Below, piece after piece: positions 48,863 through 55,171 of a stretch of DNA of 64,000 nucleotides. The notes below the pieces were generated by a model. The model searched no databases and was not told where the DNA came from. It saw nothing but the letters and a program-made list of their open reading frames with translations. Where the stretch lies: the NCBI RefSeq assembly GCF_004116465.1, contig NZ_PDJV01000002.1, positions 186,001 through 250,000 on the forward strand, in the 5' to 3' direction. The translations under genes were made by a program, and so were the position numbers. The first letter of the stretch is position 1, and each line of letters opens with the position of its first letter. Source of the DNA: Arcobacter sp. F2176 (GTDB lineage Bacteria > Campylobacterota > Campylobacteria > Campylobacterales > Arcobacteraceae).

Positions 48863-48877
48863 TGATAATAATTATCA
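48863..48877. promoter_or_regulatory. Fur-box-like palindrome in the sucC/iron-island gap
   Basis: TGATAATAATTATCA is a perfect 7-1-7 palindrome that closely follows the Fur consensus (GATAATGATAATCATTATC). It lies in the gap between divergent sucC and the flavodoxin transcript. It is one of several such sites around the iron island (48918, 50339, 54491, 55153). Confidence 0.75.
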
Positions 48878-48917
48878 TAATAAGAAAAAATTAAGTTTCT
48901 TTTATTTATAATACTTG

Positions 48918-48934
48918 ATATTGATTATCAATAT
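48918..48934. promoter_or_regulatory. Second Fur-box-like palindrome, next to the flavodoxin transcript start
   Basis: ATATTGATTATCAATAT is a perfect 17-bp palindrome, 12 bases before the ATG of the hypothetical gene that precedes flavodoxin and just upstream of its AAAGGATAAAG ribosome binding site. Its position over the probable transcript start fits repression by iron-loaded Fur. Confidence 0.72.
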
Positions 48935-48945
48935 AAAGGATAAAG

Positions 48946-49389
48946 ATGAGTTTTAATGAATGTACTAATTTAATAAATTCAATACATGATAATAAAAATA
49001 CAAATGAAAATTTTTTTAATTATGTATATAAAAAAATAGCAAGAAATACAAAAAATAGATTTGTGGAAAAGTATGAAGATTGTATTGATATCGTTTTATC
49101 AAACCATCCATCCATAAAAGTTATTCCTTTATGCACAAATATGAATAAAGAAAATTTATCAATAAAAAATGAAGTGAAAATTGCTTGCGATATAGTACTT
49201 AACAGCGAATATAAATATGTATATTTTGTATATCCAAAAAATAGAAATTTCAATAAACATATTCAAGTAAAAATACCATTACTTGAAGAATCTTGTAGTG
49301 AATATATGGTGAAATTGATACCTTATTCATTAAATGACATTATTAAAAAAAGGAGTTGTAGTGAAAACAGCAATATTTTATGCAAGTAG
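48946..49389 (+). CDS. Hypothetical protein, first gene of the flavodoxin transcript
   Basis: 147 residues that I do not recognise. It is soluble, with several Cys residues (positions near 6, 46, 62, 80, 112 and the C-terminal CSENSNILCK) and basic/aromatic segments (VYFVYPKNRNFNKHIQVK). The ATG follows AAAGGATAAAG. Its 3' end overlaps the flavodoxin gene by about 29 bases, so the two are cotranscribed, and a Fur-like box lies in front. A role in iron limitation is inferred from context only. Confidence 0.7.
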   Translation: MSFNECTNLINSIHDNKNTNENFFNYVYKKIARNTKNRFVEKYEDCIDIVLSNHPSIKVIPLCTNMNKENLSIKNEVKIACDIVLNSEYKYVYFVYPKNRNFNKHIQVKIPLLEESCSEYMVKLIPYSLNDIIKKRSCSENSNILCK

Positions 49390-49861
49390 TACGGGAAATA
49401 CTTCAAATATAGCAGAATTAATAGGAAAAGAATTATCAATAGATTCAATTCATGATATTGCAGATGTAAGTCTATCAAAAATTAATGAGTATGAAAATGT
49501 AATATTTGGAATATCAACTTGGGGTGATGGTGATTTACAAGATGACTGGGATGATAATTTTGAACAATTAAAAGAAGTAGATTTTTCATCAAAAAAAGTA
49601 GCTTTGTTTGGATTAGGAGATCAAGATGGATATCCAGATACATATTTAGATGCTATGGGTATTGTTTATGAACAACTAAAAAGTATGGGTGCAAATGTGG
49701 TAGGGGAATGGGAAAGAGATGAATCCTATGAGTTTGATGACTCAAAAGCTTTTGTTGATAATAAATTTGTAGGTTTGGCTTTGGATGAAGATACACAAGA
49801 TGATTTGACTAATCAAAGAGTTTCAAAATGGGTATCTTACATAAAAGATGATTTTATTTAG
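49361..49861 (+). CDS. fldA: Flavodoxin
   Basis: 166 residues. The P-loop SSTGNTSNIAELIGK starts at about residue 8; the FMN loops appear as FGISTWGDGDLQDDWDD and FGLGDQDGYPDTYLDAMG, with the long-chain type insert. Flavodoxin replaces ferredoxin as electron carrier when iron is short. The frame is open to 49334, but GTG at 49361 follows AAAAGGAGTTGTA and begins with the expected beta-strand KTAIFYASSTGN. Iron control by the Fur-like boxes upstream is plausible. Confidence 0.95.
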   Translation: MKTAIFYASSTGNTSNIAELIGKELSIDSIHDIADVSLSKINEYENVIFGISTWGDGDLQDDWDDNFEQLKEVDFSSKKVALFGLGDQDGYPDTYLDAMGIVYEQLKSMGANVVGEWERDESYEFDDSKAFVDNKFVGLALDEDTQDDLTNQRVSKWVSYIKDDFI

Positions 49862-49981: not shown

Positions 49982-50003
49982 TAAGGGGGTACTAATGCCC
50001 TTA
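49982..50003. terminator. Bidirectional terminator between the flavodoxin transcript and the 75-residue gene
   Basis: TAAGGG (49982-49987) and CCCTTA (49998-50003) pair around a ten-base loop, followed by GCTTTCTTTTAG on the plus strand. The 3' arm includes the stop codon of the leftward 75-residue gene. It is a modest stem with a T-rich tail, serving both convergent transcripts. Confidence 0.55.
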
Positions 50004-50228
50004 GCTTTCTTTTAGTGTATTAGATTTTTTAATTTTATTTTTTGGTTGATATAGCATGTGATGCCACAATGCAAATCCGCAAAAAGCAACGCCAGCTACT
50101 ACATGAACTTTTTTTGCAACTTTATTTTTCATAAACATAGAAGTTACTACTGTTGCTCCTAAAGTTGCTGTCATTCCAATCTTTGCAGCTTCTTTTTGAA
50201 TCTCTAAATCAATTGGCATTTCTTTCAT
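50001..50228 (-). CDS. Small membrane protein in the iron island
   Basis: 75 residues: a first hydrophobic stretch (IGMTATLGATVVTSMFM), then VHVVAGVAFCGFALWHHMLY with an HH pair as in small cytochrome-b-like or DUF4405-like proteins, and a basic tail. I cannot name the family. The ATG at 50228 lies within the end of the overlapping 39-residue gene, so the two are coupled. A Fur-like box at 50339 lies in front of the pair. Confidence 0.65.
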   Translation of the reverse strand: MKEMPIDLEIQKEAAKIGMTATLGATVVTSMFMKNKVAKKVHVVAGVAFCGFALWHHMLYQPKNKIKKSNTLKES

Positions 50229-50328
50229 TTCTTTTTTTCCTTTTATCTAGAACTTTTGCAGTTTTATTTACAGTTTTTACCGTTAAAATTGCTGTTAAAG
50301 CTGTTGCAAGTGGTAGTAAAAATGGCAT
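50209..50328 (-). CDS. 39-residue membrane peptide, iron island
   Basis: A short frame reading MPFLLPLATALTAILTVKTV and then a lysine/arginine-rich tail ending RNERNAN, with AAAGGATTAAT before the ATG at 50328. It is a single hydrophobic helix plus a basic tail. Its end overlaps the start of the 75-residue gene by 20 bases. Fits the other small membrane proteins of the island. Confidence 0.6.
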   Translation of the reverse strand: MPFLLPLATALTAILTVKTVNKTAKVLDKRKKRNERNAN

Positions 50329-50338
50329 ATTAATCCTT

Positions 50339-50355
50339 TTGATAATAATTATCAA
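50339..50355. promoter_or_regulatory. Fur-box-like palindrome upstream of the 39/75-residue pair
   Basis: TTGATAATAATTATCAA is a perfect 17-bp palindrome of Fur type, 11 bases before the 39-residue ATG and 53 bases after the ATPase stop. A further half-site, CTATTATCAATATA, follows at about 50391. It suggests a separate Fur-controlled promoter for the two small genes. Confidence 0.72.
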
Positions 50356-50407
50356 TATTTTATCTAAAGAAACTTAAATAAAACTAATAACTATTATCAA
50401 TATACTA

Positions 50408-52519
50408 CTACTTTACACCCCTTATTGAATTAAGCAATAATCCAATGGTTGTACCATTATGTAAAACAGCTGTCACAATTGGAGAAAATAGACCAAATGT
50501 AGCACCTGCTAGTATGCAAGAGTTGATTCCAACAGTTGCATTGAAATTGTTATTAATCAGATTCATTGTTTTATTAGCATATTCTTTTGCTTCAACAACT
50601 GCAGCAATATCATCTTTTAAAAGACTAATATCAGCAGTTGCTTTTGCAATATCGGCACCTCTACTCATAGATATTCCAACATGGGCAGATATTAATGCAG
50701 GTGCATCATTTATTCCATCACCAATGAAAGCAACTTTTTTGCCTTCATCCATAAGTTCTTTTACTATTTTTGCTTTGTCTTGTGGGAGTAATTCTGCTCG
50801 TACTTCATCAATACCAATTTCATCAGCAATAAGTTTTGCTTTTTCTTTCGTATCACCTGTTAGCATTATGATATTTTTAACACCTAGTTTTTTTAATTTA
50901 CTAATAGAATCTTTTGTATTTTCTCTTAATTCATCAGCGAGTCCAATGGTTCCTAAAAGCTTTCCATCATAACCAATATAAAGTAGAGTTTTACCATTTT
51001 TTAATGAATTATTGATTTTATCTTTATGTTCAGAAAAATCTATTTTTTCATCATCTTCAACAAAGTGTCTACTTCCAATTACTACAGCTTTTCCTTTTAC
51101 TTCTGTTTTTACCCCATGTGCAACAATAAATTCAACTTCTTCATGGTGCATATGAACAAAACCTCTCTCTTTTGCTGCTTTTACAACAGCTTCTGCTACT
51201 GGATGGAAATAGTGTTCTTCAGTTGAAGCTGTTAAATTTAAAACTTCCTCTTCTGTCCAATCATCACTATAGGATTCTACAGAGATTACTTCTAATTCTC
51301 CGCAAGTTAAAGTACCAGTTTTGTCAAATACAAAAGTATCTGCATTACTAAGTGCTTCAATAGATTTTGCACCTTTTATCATAATTCCATTATGTCCAGC
51401 TTTTGAAATAGTTGATTTAAAAGCAACTGGAGTTGCTAGTTTTAAAGCACAAGAGTAATCTGCTTGTAAAATAGAAGCTACTCTTTCAAAATCCCTTGCA
51501 AAAATATAAGAAACTCCAGCAAGCCCAAGTGTTACAGGAACTAGTTTATTTGCTAGTTTATTTGCTTTTAATTGAACTGATGATTTTTCATTTAGTGAAT
51601 TTTCAATATAGTGTTTAATTCTTTGAGTTGCTGTATCTGAACCTACATGTTCAGCCCAGATTCTAAATCTTCCCTCTTCAACAATAGTTCCAGAGATAAC
51701 TCTATCCCCTCTATATCTTACGATTGGTTCAGCTTCTCCTGTCATAGATACTTGATTTACACTACCTGTTCCTTCTAAAATGTGTCCATCAACTGGTATT
51801 GTATTTCCAATACCAACAACTACGATATCTCCAACTTTCACTTCATTACTTTTTATTAAAACTTCAGTAACCTTGTTATCAACTATTTTTTCAACCCAAG
51901 CTTCTTCTACATTTGGTTTTGCTAACTCTTTTAATAAATCATCACTTTTATGAACAGTCGTCTCTTCAATATATTCACCAAGTTCTAACATCATATTTGT
52001 AGAGTTTGCAGCAAGATAATCTTTTCTATAAATTGAGATGGCAACAGCTGCACTTTCTAAAACCTTTGAAGTTAAACCTTCTTCTAAAAGCTCTTTTGAA
52101 CCATCAATTAAAAGTGGAATAGAAGCACTTGTAGTAATCCCAGCTTTTAATAAATCATTGTTAATAAATCTTTCAGAGATAAGCGCACTAGAAGCTCTTA
52201 ACATACCGTTTATTGAAGGCTCTTCATCACTTACACAAGATACACAAACAGCTTCATTTTGGCAATTATTTAGTAATTCATCAAGTGTTAATTCACTTAA
52301 AATAGCTTCAATTTCATTTGTAATGTCTTTATTTATTTCAAAAATAATTGAAAATGCTTTTTTATTTATTCGTACACTTTCAACATGATTAATTTTTTTA
52401 AGATAATTTTTTAAAATATCTTCATCTATAAATTTTTCTTTTAGTAAGAAATATTTATATCTAAGTCTTGAAGAAGTTTGGTGTACTTTAATAAATTTAT
52501 TATTCATAGGTTTATTCAT
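50408..52519 (-). CDS. P1B-type metal ATPase with SCAL motif, FezB-like
   Basis: 703 residues. The N-terminus is an HMA_2-like domain (HQTSSRLRYKYFLLKEKF, with an Arg-rich start and no CxxC). The ATPase core has actuator SMTGEAEP, phosphorylation DKTGTLT (Asp about 399), GDGINDAPAL and LLKDDIA. The membrane motif that is CPC in copper/zinc pumps is here ADYSCALKLATPVAFK (Cys about 357). This matches the P1B-6-like pumps of ferrosome loci rather than copper or zinc exporters. Last gene of the six-gene leftward operon, overlapping the gene before by eight bases. Confidence 0.9.
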   Translation of the reverse strand: MNKPMNNKFIKVHQTSSRLRYKYFLLKEKFIDEDILKNYLKKINHVESVRINKKAFSIIFEINKDITNEIEAILSELTLDELLNNCQNEAVCVSCVSDEEPSINGMLRASSALISERFINNDLLKAGITTSASIPLLIDGSKELLEEGLTSKVLESAAVAISIYRKDYLAANSTNMMLELGEYIEETTVHKSDDLLKELAKPNVEEAWVEKIVDNKVTEVLIKSNEVKVGDIVVVGIGNTIPVDGHILEGTGSVNQVSMTGEAEPIVRYRGDRVISGTIVEEGRFRIWAEHVGSDTATQRIKHYIENSLNEKSSVQLKANKLANKLVPVTLGLAGVSYIFARDFERVASILQADYSCALKLATPVAFKSTISKAGHNGIMIKGAKSIEALSNADTFVFDKTGTLTCGELEVISVESYSDDWTEEEVLNLTASTEEHYFHPVAEAVVKAAKERGFVHMHHEEVEFIVAHGVKTEVKGKAVVIGSRHFVEDDEKIDFSEHKDKINNSLKNGKTLLYIGYDGKLLGTIGLADELRENTKDSISKLKKLGVKNIIMLTGDTKEKAKLIADEIGIDEVRAELLPQDKAKIVKELMDEGKKVAFIGDGINDAPALISAHVGISMSRGADIAKATADISLLKDDIAAVVEAKEYANKTMNLINNNFNATVGINSCILAGATFGLFSPIVTAVLHNGTTIGLLLNSIRGVK

Positions 52520-52853
52520 TATTCGCTTGCATTTGAGCTTTCATATCTTCATACTTTTCTTTTAACTCTTCAATTCCTGCTTGAAAAAGTTCACTTCCTT
52601 TTCCAAAAACTTGGAAAGCTTTTTCTTGGGCATTTTTATTTGTAAGTAAATATGTAACTGCTGCACCTATTAACGCACCTTTTACAAAATCTCCGGTATT
52701 AAATCCACTTTGTGTTCCCTCAACATTTGTTTGTTGTGTTGCATTTGTAGGATTTGCATTTTGATTTATATATGGGTTTTGGTTGATATTAGCAGTAGTT
52801 CTTATATCACTTGGTCTGCTACTTTCTATATTTATATCGTATTGATTATTCAT
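52512..52853 (-). CDS. Glycine/alanine-helix membrane protein with N/Q-rich N-terminus and coiled-coil tail
   Basis: 113 residues. Residues 1-48 are disordered and rich in Asn, Gln and Thr (NINQNPYINQNANPTNATQQ). One hydrophobic helix follows (GDFVKGALIGAAVTYLLT), then a charged helical tail (GIEELKEKYEDMKAQMQ) as in YtxH-like proteins. It overlaps the next gene (the ATPase) and the previous one by eight bases each. No known enzymatic function; it may shape or anchor a membrane compartment. Confidence 0.75.
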   Translation of the reverse strand: MNNQYDINIESSRPSDIRTTANINQNPYINQNANPTNATQQTNVEGTQSGFNTGDFVKGALIGAAVTYLLTNKNAQEKAFQVFGKGSELFQAGIEELKEKYEDMKAQMQANNE

Positions 52854-53208
52854 TGATTTCCTCTTCCAAAAGACAGTTTTCGTTTGTTAGATATTTTTTA
52901 TCAAGTTGTTCTTCAATAACTTCTAGGGCATAGATTCCCATAGCTCCAACAGAAAGAGCAGTAACAGCTTTCAATAATCCACCTTTTTCACCTAAATAAT
53001 TAGCAGTAGCAATAGCAGCACCAGTTGCAATTGCTCCTTGTGAAGTCTTTTTAATAGTATCTTTAATTGCAGCTTTTTTTTCTAATTCATTTGATTTTAC
53101 TTTTTTATAATTGATAGCTCCGCTAATTACAGCAGATGCAATAGCTCCACTAATTACATGTCCTAGGACATTTCTTTGAGCTCCAGTATTTATAACGATC
53201 TCTTTCAT
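52846..53208 (-). CDS. Glycine/alanine-rich multi-helix membrane protein
   Basis: 120 residues. Three Gly/Ala-rich hydrophobic segments: HVISGAIASAVISGAINY, QGAIATGAAIATANYLG and LLKAVTALSVGAMGIYALEV, with a charged linker (KSNELEKKAAIKDTIKKT) and an acidic end. The small-residue spacing resembles glycine-zipper packing. It starts with an ATG at 53208 overlapping the previous gene by four bases. Not recognised beyond this; I group it with the small hydrophobic proteins of ferrosome-like loci. Confidence 0.72.
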   Translation of the reverse strand: MKEIVINTGAQRNVLGHVISGAIASAVISGAINYKKVKSNELEKKAAIKDTIKKTSQGAIATGAAIATANYLGEKGGLLKAVTALSVGAMGIYALEVIEEQLDKKYLTNENCLLEEEINE

Positions 53209-53435
53209 TTCTCTTCCTTGTTTATTTCTTCTTTAACTTCTTTTGTCTCTTTTTTTTGGCATAAGTTATCTTTTAATTCACTAACATTTTTTTTAGTTTT
53301 ACTTATTGTTTCATTTGCAAATTCTTTTGATTTACCAACTATTTCATCTGTTTTAGTTTTTACTTTATCTGATTTGTTATATGCAAGTACAGCACCTGCT
53401 CCTACGGCTACCCCGATTAAGAATGGTAATGGCAT
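53205..53435 (-). CDS. Small YtxH-like membrane protein
   Basis: 76 residues: one short hydrophobic helix (LPFLIGVAVGAGAVLAY) and a long lysine/glutamate-rich helical tail (TDEIVGKSKEFANETISKTK then ETKEVKEEINKEEK). The layout is that of YtxH/DUF883-type coiled-coil membrane-anchored proteins. It follows the ferritin-like gene by three bases and overlaps the next by four. The N-terminal helix resembles that of the 113-residue protein in the operon. Confidence 0.75.
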   Translation of the reverse strand: MPLPFLIGVAVGAGAVLAYNKSDKVKTKTDEIVGKSKEFANETISKTKKNVSELKDNLCQKKETKEVKEEINKEEK

Positions 53436-53438
53436 TTT

Positions 53439-54116
53439 CTACTCCTCATTTTGATTTTTTGAAATATAATTATTCATAAGTGCAATGATTGCACCACCAA
53501 AAACAGCACCACTTGTCATAGATAAATTAAGTTTTGAAAATATTTTTGTAATCGAACTTTCATCAATATTTCCTGACATAATATCATCAAGTAAAACTTG
53601 ATATTCGCCAAGTTTTTCCATCATATTTTCTTGGTTAATATTTACATTGCTATTACTAGTATAATGCATAAGTACAGAGTTTCTAAAAGCTGGTAGATGA
53701 TTATTAAAAGATGCTGCTTGTAATTGATAAAGTACATTTTTTATATCATCTTGAGTTACATGACTTAATAGATTATTGTACATTGCTATATTATTAATCT
53801 CTGCTGCAACTCCCATCTCAGAACATTCAATTAATGTATTTGGAATTTCAATTTTTGAGTACCAATCATTAATAGGTACTTCAACTGCATACTTTTCCAT
53901 TAGTTTAATCAAAGCACCATAATGTATTGCTTCTGCTTCTTTGATATTTACAAATGGTTGCACTAAACCAAATTTTTCAATTATTTTTGTGTAAGTTTCA
54001 TATGCTTTATATTCATCATACACAGCAATTCTTAATATTTGAGTTGTAATAGGTATTTGACTATTTATATCAACTCTAGCACTTGTTAAAAGTTGCTCAT
54101 CTATATTTGTCTCCAA
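53439..54116 (-). CDS. Ferritin-like protein (DUF2202 type)
   Basis: 225 residues. Two pairs of helices carry ferritin-like di-iron residues: IAVYDEYKAYETYTKI (Glu), IKEAEAIHYGALIKL (the ExxxH pattern) and SEMGVAAEINNIAMYNNLL (Glu). A hydrophobic C-terminus (SGAVFGGAIIALMNNYI) suggests a membrane anchor, uncommon for ferritins. The start is TTG at 54116, with GGAGG inside the end of the preceding gene. Di-iron site inferred from motifs. Its neighbours suggest iron handling at a membrane. Confidence 0.8.
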   Translation of the reverse strand: METNIDEQLLTSARVDINSQIPITTQILRIAVYDEYKAYETYTKIIEKFGLVQPFVNIKEAEAIHYGALIKLMEKYAVEVPINDWYSKIEIPNTLIECSEMGVAAEINNIAMYNNLLSHVTQDDIKNVLYQLQAASFNNHLPAFRNSVLMHYTSNSNVNINQENMMEKLGEYQVLLDDIMSGNIDESSITKIFSKLNLSMTSGAVFGGAIIALMNNYISKNQNEE

Positions 54117-54431
54117 TTAAATAACCTCCTTTGCTAAATTGTTAATTAAATCAGTTATTTCATCTATATTCTCTTGATTTATTAAATCTTCCCATGTTTT
54201 TGGCTTAAATACTTTTGGGTCATATTTAATTGTAACTGAAGCAATAATTTTATTTATCTTAATGTGTTCTATCCCAGATATTTTTTCTGGAAGGGTCTGA
54301 ATATCTTCAATAGAAATATTTCCAGCAGAATCCTTTATTTTAGGATTGACTCTTACTCTTAGTCTTCCTGGAGTATGTGCAATTATTGTAAAAAATTTTG
54401 CTATATTTATAATTTCTTCTGTAGTAATCAA
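54117..54431 (-). CDS. HMA_2-domain protein, first gene of the iron-storage-like operon
   Basis: 104 residues. FFTIIAHTPGRLRVRVNPKIK followed by a beta-alpha-beta pattern (GIEHIKINKIIASVTIKYDP) resembles the HMA_2 domain: heavy-metal-associated fold without the CxxC metal site but with an RLRVR stretch. The same Arg-containing N-terminus occurs in the ATPase at 50408. The start is TTG at 54431 after AAAGGAATAAAT. It may act as a protein partner of the ATPase. Confidence 0.75.
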   Translation of the reverse strand: MITTEEIINIAKFFTIIAHTPGRLRVRVNPKIKDSAGNISIEDIQTLPEKISGIEHIKINKIIASVTIKYDPKVFKPKTWEDLINQENIDEITDLINNLAKEVI

Positions 54432-54490
54432 ATTTATTCCTTTTGATGATTATTATATATATAATCTTAATAATATCTTATTGTAAATTT

Positions 54491-54503
54491 GTAATCATTA
54501 TCA
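54491..54503 (-). promoter_or_regulatory. Fur-like half-palindrome in the promoter of the six-gene operon
   Basis: On the minus strand TGATAATGATTAC matches the left half of the Fur consensus. It lies 60 bases upstream of the HMA_2 gene in an 88-bp gap that is otherwise AT-rich with TATATATATAAT-type tracts. Together with the other boxes it suggests iron or Fur-family control of the operon. Confidence 0.6.
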
Positions 54504-54519
54504 AAAAAAGTATTTTAGT

Positions 54520-54972
54520 TTATTTTTGACAGGTTTGACATAAACCATATATTGTTACTACATGGTCTTTTAGAAGAAAGTTATTTGTTTTTGCTATTTC
54601 TAATTGTTTTTGTTCCATAATTTCATCTTCAAATTCGATTATAGTGTGACATGAATTACAAATAAGATGATCATGGTGGTTTGAATAGTCAAGTTCATAG
54701 TAGTTTGCTTTTTCAAGGATATTTAAGCATTTTATTATTTTAAGTTCTTCAAATAATTTTAAAATTTTGTATACGGTTGCAATAGAAATATTTACATTAT
54801 ACTGAATTTTAAGTTCTTGATTTATATTTTCTGCTGTTAAGTGACCTTTTGAGTAGTAGAGGGCTTTTAGAACATAATCTTTTTGGATAGTATTTTTTAA
54901 TTTAAGATTTTGGAAGTGCTGTTTATATCTTCTTAATAAGTTATTAAAGTGTGTTTCATTCTTTTCAAGCAT
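54520..54972 (-). CDS. Fur-family metalloregulator
   Basis: 150 residues with the Fur winged helix (HLTAENINQELKIQYNVNIS, then IATVYKILKLFEELKIIKCL), the metal-site stretch NHHDHLICNSCHTIIEFEDE and the second CxxC in LCQTCQK. PerR and Fur cannot be separated from the sequence alone. It lies between the six-gene iron operon and a divergent gene, with Fur-like boxes on both sides. It is a probable dedicated regulator, analogous in position to FezX of Clostridioides difficile. Confidence 0.92.
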   Translation of the reverse strand: MLEKNETHFNNLLRRYKQHFQNLKLKNTIQKDYVLKALYYSKGHLTAENINQELKIQYNVNISIATVYKILKLFEELKIIKCLNILEKANYYELDYSNHHDHLICNSCHTIIEFEDEIMEQKQLEIAKTNNFLLKDHVVTIYGLCQTCQK

Positions 54973-55096
54973 TTAATAATTCTTTTATCATAATAAAAGA
55001 AACAGCTACAAAAAGTGCAGAGTAATATACTTTCCATAAATTAGCATGTATTTTTATATTTTTCTGAAGTAAAGACATCTTTTTAACTTTTTTCAT
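54965..55096 (-). CDS. 43-residue single-helix membrane peptide preceding the Fur-family gene
   Basis: A frame reading MKKVKKMSLLQKNIKIHANL then a hydrophobic helix (WKVYYSALFVAVSFIMIKEL) and ending LLNA. The ATG at 55096 follows CAAGGTTATATA, and the TGA overlaps the Fur-family start by eight bases, so the two are coupled. It is a basic N-terminus with one membrane helix. Function unknown. Confidence 0.6.
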   Translation of the reverse strand: MKKVKKMSLLQKNIKIHANLWKVYYSALFVAVSFIMIKELLNA

Positions 55097-55120: not shown

Positions 55121-55171
55121 AATGATACTTATTGTGACCTTAAAGTAATATTAATGATACTTATTATCATT
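55121..55171. promoter_or_regulatory. Repeated Fur-like sites in the fur/55227 divergent promoter
   Basis: AATGATACTTATT occurs twice (55121-55133 and 55153-55165, 32 bases apart). The second is extended as AATGATACTTATTATCATT (55153-55171), an imperfect Fur palindrome. The sites lie between the leftward 43-residue/Fur-family transcript and the rightward gene at 55227. Autoregulation of the Fur-family gene is likely. Confidence 0.68.

Follow-up and report, generated by a model that had tools for sequence, protein, structure and literature searches.

Ferrosomes are small iron-storing organelles bounded by a membrane, and have so far been studied in few organisms. The window analysed here is a stretch of 64,000 nucleotides (nt) from Arcobacter sp. 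F2176 (assembly GCF_004116465.1, contig NZ_PDJV01000002.1, positions 186,001 to 250,000 of the forward strand), and it contains what is very probably a ferrosome (fez) locus of the six-gene type of Rhodopseudomonas palustris, with a ferritin-like component built in. The ferrosome is a known kind of system; the ferritin-carrying form is a variant, common in Campylobacterota. The direct observations are gene content, gene order, conservation, homology, the phylogeny of the ATPase and predicted folds.

Gene content and conservation of the locus

The core of the locus is a leftward set of six genes, encoding an HMA_2 protein, a ferritin-like protein of the DUF2202 family, three small proteins (S76, S120 and S113) and a P1B ATPase; on its 5′ side lie a Fur paralogue and a peptide of 43 amino acids (aa). 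From the HMA_2 gene to the ATPase gene, the junctions are 0 bases, a 3-base gap, and overlaps of 4, 8 and 8 bases, and the overlaps suggest that the small membrane proteins are co-transcribed. An earlier note, made from the DNA sequence without database searches, had given the same starts, stops and junctions for the six genes. Its inventory of the six genes and the upstream pair stands, but it missed that the gene set reaches further downstream, to position 50001, through genes for a peptide of 39 aa and a DUF4405-like protein of 75 aa (together 50001–50328). The features of the locus are:

50001–50228, minus strand: FezC/DUF4405-like small membrane protein, 75 aa, putative haem protein (invariant H42 and H56; profile match)
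50209–50328, minus strand: 39-aa hydrophobic peptide whose gene opens the downstream unit; in most Arcobacteraceae loci it is kept between the genes for the ATPase and the FezC-like protein
50340–50354, unstranded: perfect Fur-like box TGATAATAATTATCA (0 mismatches) ahead of the genes for the 39-aa peptide and the FezC-like protein; same place in many relatives
50385–50399, unstranded: second Fur-like box, 2 mismatches
50408–52519, minus strand: FezB-type P1B ATPase, 703 aa, with DYSCALK motif and DKTGT
52512–52853, minus strand: S113, 113-aa YtxH-like protein with a GALIGAAVTYLL segment; profile match to a Pseudomonadota fez-type gene
52846–53208, minus strand: S120, 120-aa three-helix protein of a family related to the magnetosome protein MamC (NF038051 matches; AlphaFold predicted local distance difference test score, pLDDT, 93)
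53205–53435, minus strand: S76, 76 aa, one N-terminal hydrophobic segment and a charged tail; same position in relatives
53439–54116, minus strand: ferritin-like DUF2202 protein, 225 aa, C-terminal Gly-rich hydrophobic tail; TTG start; DUF2202 E 4e-6
54117–54431, minus strand: 104-aa protein with an HMA_2 domain and an HTPGRLRVR motif, lacking cysteine; TTG start; PF19991 E 8e-8
54489–54503, unstranded: weak Fur-like box (2 mismatches) that precedes the six-gene operon by about 57 bp
54520–54972, minus strand: Fur-family regulator (the genome has four genes of this family); PF01475 E 1e-28
54965–55096, minus strand: 43-aa membrane peptide overlapping the Fur-family gene, which it precedes in 13 loci
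55155–55169, unstranded: Fur-like box (1 mismatch) ahead of the genes for the 43-aa peptide and the Fur-family regulator

The matches of the HMA_2 and ferritin-like genes both lie above the Pfam cut-off and bear out the families that the earlier note had proposed for them, as does the PF01475 match for its Fur-family regulator beside the 43-residue peptide. Its description of three small Gly/Ala-rich membrane proteins holds in part: only S120 is clearly rich in Gly and Ala (23%), and S113 contains no more than a single, weak hydrophobic segment (its highest 19-residue Kyte–Doolittle value is 1.08).

An orthologue of the ATPase (63–100% identity, next-best paralogues at most 36%) is present in 34 of 61 Arcobacteraceae genomes, among them that of the window. 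Among 347 Campylobacterota genomes, 122 have one each, so that a probable ferrosome locus can now be placed in about one-third of the species sampled. The order HMA_2, ferritin-like, S76, S120, S113, ATPase is common to 32 of the 33 Arcobacteraceae loci surveyed (the remaining locus is on a truncated contig), and the FezC-like gene then follows in 29 of the 33. The order is also intact in most of 20 loci from other Campylobacterota genera and families, where the ferritin-like gene is found in 17 (in one of them weakly) and the FezC-like gene in 15. Thus, the operon is not a chance arrangement, and the extended version with a ferritin-like gene that had been suspected is real and recurs in many genera. 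Two Arcobacter plasmids from chicken meat, each about 133 kb in size, also carry the whole cluster: L066 (CP129951.1) and L067 (CP134847.1); one of these has its ATPase split into two open reading frames (ORFs) and two genes for TonB-dependent receptors nearby.

Comparison with known fez clusters

The ferrosome cluster of R. palustris consists of six fez genes, RPA2333–2338 (PMC12016538). In two Rhodopseudomonas genomes, a cluster of exactly six genes was found on one long contig: an HMA_2 and FezC-like fusion, an HMA_2 gene, S76-, S120- and S113-like genes and the ATPase gene. The cluster ATPase is present in 4 of 16 Rhodopseudomonas genomes, with 47–48% identity to that of the window and as a single copy in each. 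Since these genomes are not known to be strain CGA009, we infer from genus, gene number and single copy that the clusters correspond to RPA2333–2338. All six genes of this type of cluster have counterparts in the window, with the three small proteins in the same order: five of the six are recognised by controlled profiles or by the tree, and S76, whose profile match outside Campylobacterota is weak, mainly by its conserved position. In profile comparisons with the corresponding genes of fez-type clusters from Pseudomonadota, S113 matches with a probability of 99.3% (E 1.5e-20) and S120 with one of 98.6% (E 7e-16), cross-controls being below 10%; these hhalign E-values refer to single comparisons rather than to a library search. 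The ferrosome reading of the earlier note is thereby supported. The two types differ in that the FezC-like domain is fused to HMA_2 in Rhodopseudomonas, whereas in Arcobacter it is encoded by a separate downstream gene with its own Fur-like box. The ferritin-like gene is an addition relative to the Rhodopseudomonas cluster, as are the 39-aa peptide, the Fur-family gene and the 43-aa peptide.

Other known clusters are similar to differing degrees. By their description, the fez loci of Desulfovibrio magneticus (FezB, FezC) and Clostridioides difficile (fezA/fezB) likewise combine a P1B-type ATPase with small membrane proteins. Clusters of Thauera, Azoarcus and Azotobacter share the order HMA_2, DUF2202, small proteins, ATPase, with the ferritin-like gene at the same position; however, their ATPases are 44–48% identical to that of the window (in the genomes checked), and many lack a recognisable FezC-like gene.

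Placement of the ATPase among zinc or copper exporters had been named beforehand as a result that would refute the ferrosome reading, and the tree did not show it. In a tree of 47 rows, the ATPase belongs to a clade of 30 rows with a long stem (Shimodaira–Hasegawa-like approximate likelihood ratio test, SH-aLRT, 100), which takes in the homologues from Rhodopseudomonas, Azospirillum, Aeromonas, Thauera and Azotobacter, as well as plasmid copies from Azospirillum, Vibrio and Cereibacter. Outside this fez-type clade are CopA, ZntA and KdpB of Escherichia coli and a solved P1B-4 pump. The tree comes from a fast, non-bootstrapped search, and relations among the outgroups are unsure because several of their branches are long. 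The motif SCAL replaces CPC, as the earlier note had read it (residues 356–359, with DKTGT at 399); CPC, SPC and TPC are all absent from the window ATPase. A DYSCA-type motif is present in 136 of 138 clade members, compared with 0 of 13 other P1B ATPases. Ferrosome ATPases, which we take to be of the P1B-6 group, have an Arg-rich, cysteine-poor N-terminal domain in place of CxxC. In the window ATPase, the N-terminus is an HMA_2-like domain (sub-threshold in Pfam) with an HxxxxRxR motif (HQTSSRLRYK at residue 13) and no metal-binding CxxC; within the clade, R-x-R is found in 128 of 138 members and CxxC within the first 90 residues in only 2 of 138. Scores against the equivalog models are far below the cut-offs (CopA, 290 of 1316 bits; ZntA, 254 of 1240 bits). 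On tree placement, the SCA motif and these scores, the reading as a copper or zinc exporter was rejected.

Several irregularities were seen among the ATPase genes of relatives. In loci L053–L056, L058, L172, L175, L177 and L191, a second P1B ATPase gene directly precedes the HMA_2 gene, where the window has none; the ones sampled in the tree contain CPC and make up a clade of their own. Locus L034 (genome G031, a close relative in the same genus) has an in-frame TAA in the ATPase gene, due to decay or a sequencing error. One Rhodopseudomonas genome (L197) has a different DYSCA-motif ATPase (42% identity), which falls together with the plasmid copies of Vibrio and Cereibacter.

The ferrosome protein FezC, from D. 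magneticus, is a haem protein resembling DUF4405 (PMC10979944). The 75-aa protein of the window matches DUF4405 with E 0.007, a weak match that, like the MamC match of S120 (below), was used only together with alignments of relatives. Among 24 aligned family members, the window protein included, 22 match DUF4405 (best E 7e-4), and H42 and H56 are invariant. Because of these family matches, the two histidines and the DUF4405-like nature of FezC, the gene is read as a FezC counterpart, i.e., as encoding a putative haem protein. The protein also matches the C-terminus of gene 1 of the Rhodopseudomonas and Azospirillum clusters (probability 95.8%, E 7e-9). In L054 (11649–12302), L055 and L179, the FezC-like protein has a long C-terminal extension, which in L054 is a SpoIIAA-like domain (E 2.5e-21).

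The ferritin-like protein and the relation of S120 to MamC

The AlphaFold model of the ferritin-like protein has a ferritin bundle at residues 23–159, mostly with pLDDT 97–99, followed by a poorly placed tail. The tail is hydrophobic, as had been noted earlier, and therefore the protein is likely to be membrane-anchored by it. Foldseek placed MJ0754 first, with bacterioferritins and ferritins next, and the family profile also retrieves MJ0754 (E 1e-9). The aligned protein has E35, E62, H65, E106 and H140, which we take to be five of the six bacterioferritin-like ligands; these residues are also found in most Arcobacteraceae and in many betaproteobacterial members. The tail glycines G203 and G207 are invariant. 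Thus, the protein shares its four-helix bundle with MJ0754 and with bacterioferritin- and rubrerythrin-like proteins, but differs from MJ0754 and bacterioferritins in its hydrophobic C-terminal tail, in its lack of one ligand and in showing no evidence of a cage. Of 31 ferritin-like members, 17 match DUF2202, 12 rubrerythrin and one Pfam Ferritin; the protein falls outside the Pfam Ferritin family, which served as the criterion for cage-forming ferritins and bacterioferritins. Separate ferritin-family genes are present elsewhere in the genome. Among Pseudomonadota loci, taken as the best 80 matches to an Azospirillum query and hence not a random sample, the operon includes the ferritin-like gene in 19 of 29 loci from Betaproteobacteria, 4 of 11 from Gammaproteobacteria (all four in Pseudomonadaceae) and 0 of 26 from Alphaproteobacteria.

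The MamC model NF038051 matches 19 of 27 members of the S120 family (best E 3e-9). The window protein itself scores E 0.003 and 17.7 bits, and individually scored relatives reach up to 36 bits; three Campylobacterota members have E 5e-8 to 1.5e-5 over nearly the full length of the model. In the reverse search, true MamC proteins from two magnetospirilla, which score 147 and 142 bits against the MamC model, gave E 7e-9 and 3e-8, the best of 5000 shuffles being 0.016. Six composition shuffles of S120-type sequences gave no match to MamC. With these two sets of shuffles, a chance origin of the Gly-rich similarity was rejected. In scans of whole genomes, S120 is the top MamC match in three Arcobacteraceae genomes; in the window's own genome it has E 0.017. 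Family matches and the reverse search therefore indicate that the S120 family is related to MamC, aligning over nearly all of it, and most clearly in Campylobacterota and a Vibrio plasmid copy; by the curated cut-off, these proteins are not MamC. No match to MamC was obtained for the S120-like proteins of a Rhodopseudomonas and of several beta- and gammaproteobacteria.

Proposed function and alternatives

The fez genes of C. difficile are repressed by Fur (PMC10979944, PMC12574912). The window contains eight Fur-like boxes with at most 2 mismatches, against 1.8 expected (0 of 100 shuffles reach eight), and four of the eight fall at this locus. In 13 of 13 loci, the box before the 43-aa peptide and the Fur-family gene has no more than 1 mismatch; boxes with at most 2 mismatches precede the FezC-like unit in 24 of 44 loci and the six-gene operon in 18 of 52 (compared with 0.7% of shuffles). 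Genes for FeoB, FeoA and imelysin adjoin homologous loci. The boxes predict that the locus is probably iron-regulated through Fur.

Metal identity, transport direction, regulation and organelle formation are inferred from these observations, and the following sequence of events can be proposed. Under iron limitation, Fur-type repression would be relieved, as the boxes predict. The small proteins would shape or populate a membrane vesicle, into which the FezB-type ATPase, judging by its clade, would pump Fe(II). The cysteine-free HMA_2-type domains (the N-terminus of the ATPase and the separate HMA_2 protein) would be cytosolic handlers of the metal. By its fold and ligands, the tail-anchored ferritin-like protein may bind Fe(II) at the membrane of the vesicle and oxidise it there, and the two-histidine FezC-like haem protein may, by analogy with FezC, move electrons across that membrane, thereby setting the redox state of the iron for loading or release.

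The ATPase could instead act in the plasma membrane, exporting Fe(II) or another metal against toxicity, with the small proteins as its subunits and no organelle. It is a P1B ATPase that passes the general NCBIfam heavy-metal and cadmium-type subfamily cut-offs, and the P1B-5 ATPase Nia has been linked to the export of Fe and Ni (PMC4932525). However, its clade apart from CopA and ZntA, its lack of a CPC, SPC or TPC motif, the several small hydrophobic proteins and the ferritin-like protein that consistently accompany it, and the one-to-one match with the Rhodopseudomonas cluster make efflux improbable. Far less probable still is a related mineral-forming or other metal-storing organelle nearer to the magnetosome than to the ferrosome: the S120 family is related to MamC, but the operon showed no further magnetosome gene, and the ATPase and the remaining genes fit a fez-type cluster. 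A further alternative, compatible with a ferrosome, concerns the ferritin-like protein, which might be a scaffold or membrane tether with a decaying di-iron site and not a ferroxidase. This is a distinct possibility, though a doubtful one: one ligand is missing, and Campylobacteraceae-type members have lost both ExxH and the helix-4 His and yet keep G203 and G207, whereas five ligands persist here, in most Arcobacteraceae and in many betaproteobacterial members, within a bundle predicted at high confidence.

Several points weigh against the reading as a ferrosome locus with a ferritin-like component. The ferritin-like protein lacks one of the six bacterioferritin-type ligands, and homologues of the Campylobacteraceae type (L172–L176, L191) are without the helix-2 ExxH and the helix-4 His. 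The 75-aa protein scores below the Pfam gathering score for DUF4405, and S120 below the MamC equivalog cut-off (at least 100 bits). The Fur-like box ahead of the six-gene operon is a weak one, and boxes of this kind also precede 11% of the other long ORFs around the loci, which may include iron genes. The comparison of the ATPase is with Rhodopseudomonas genomes outside the four experimentally studied strains. No ferrosome experiment in any member of Campylobacterota was found in the literature searched.

The gene set recurs across the Campylobacter phylum, and therefore iron organelles are probably much commoner there than so far shown. More tentatively, there may be a ferrosome lineage across Campylobacterota in which a tail-anchored ferritin-like oxidase acts on the membrane of the organelle beside a MamC-related protein, a mineral-facing membrane protein shared with magnetosomes. 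A ferritin-like protein encoded within the operon of the organelle makes the coupling of ferritin chemistry to organelle storage testable, and the relation to MamC poses a concrete question, whether iron organelles have a common ancestry. In the literature searched, which did not include the two primary ferrosome papers, there is no description of the ferritin-like component, of a separate FezC-like gene or of the relation to MamC, so that prior mention is possible. The same literature contained no mention of DUF2202 or of ferrosomes together with Arcobacter, and no link between ferrosomes and MamC was drawn in the literature examined for both terms.

Two further Fur-like boxes (48863–48877 and 48916–48930, with 0 and 1 mismatch) lie just upstream of a 147-aa ORF without a Pfam match (48946–49389, plus strand), which is overlapped by a flavodoxin-like ORF (49334–49861, plus strand); this pair is possibly an iron-starvation flavodoxin unit.

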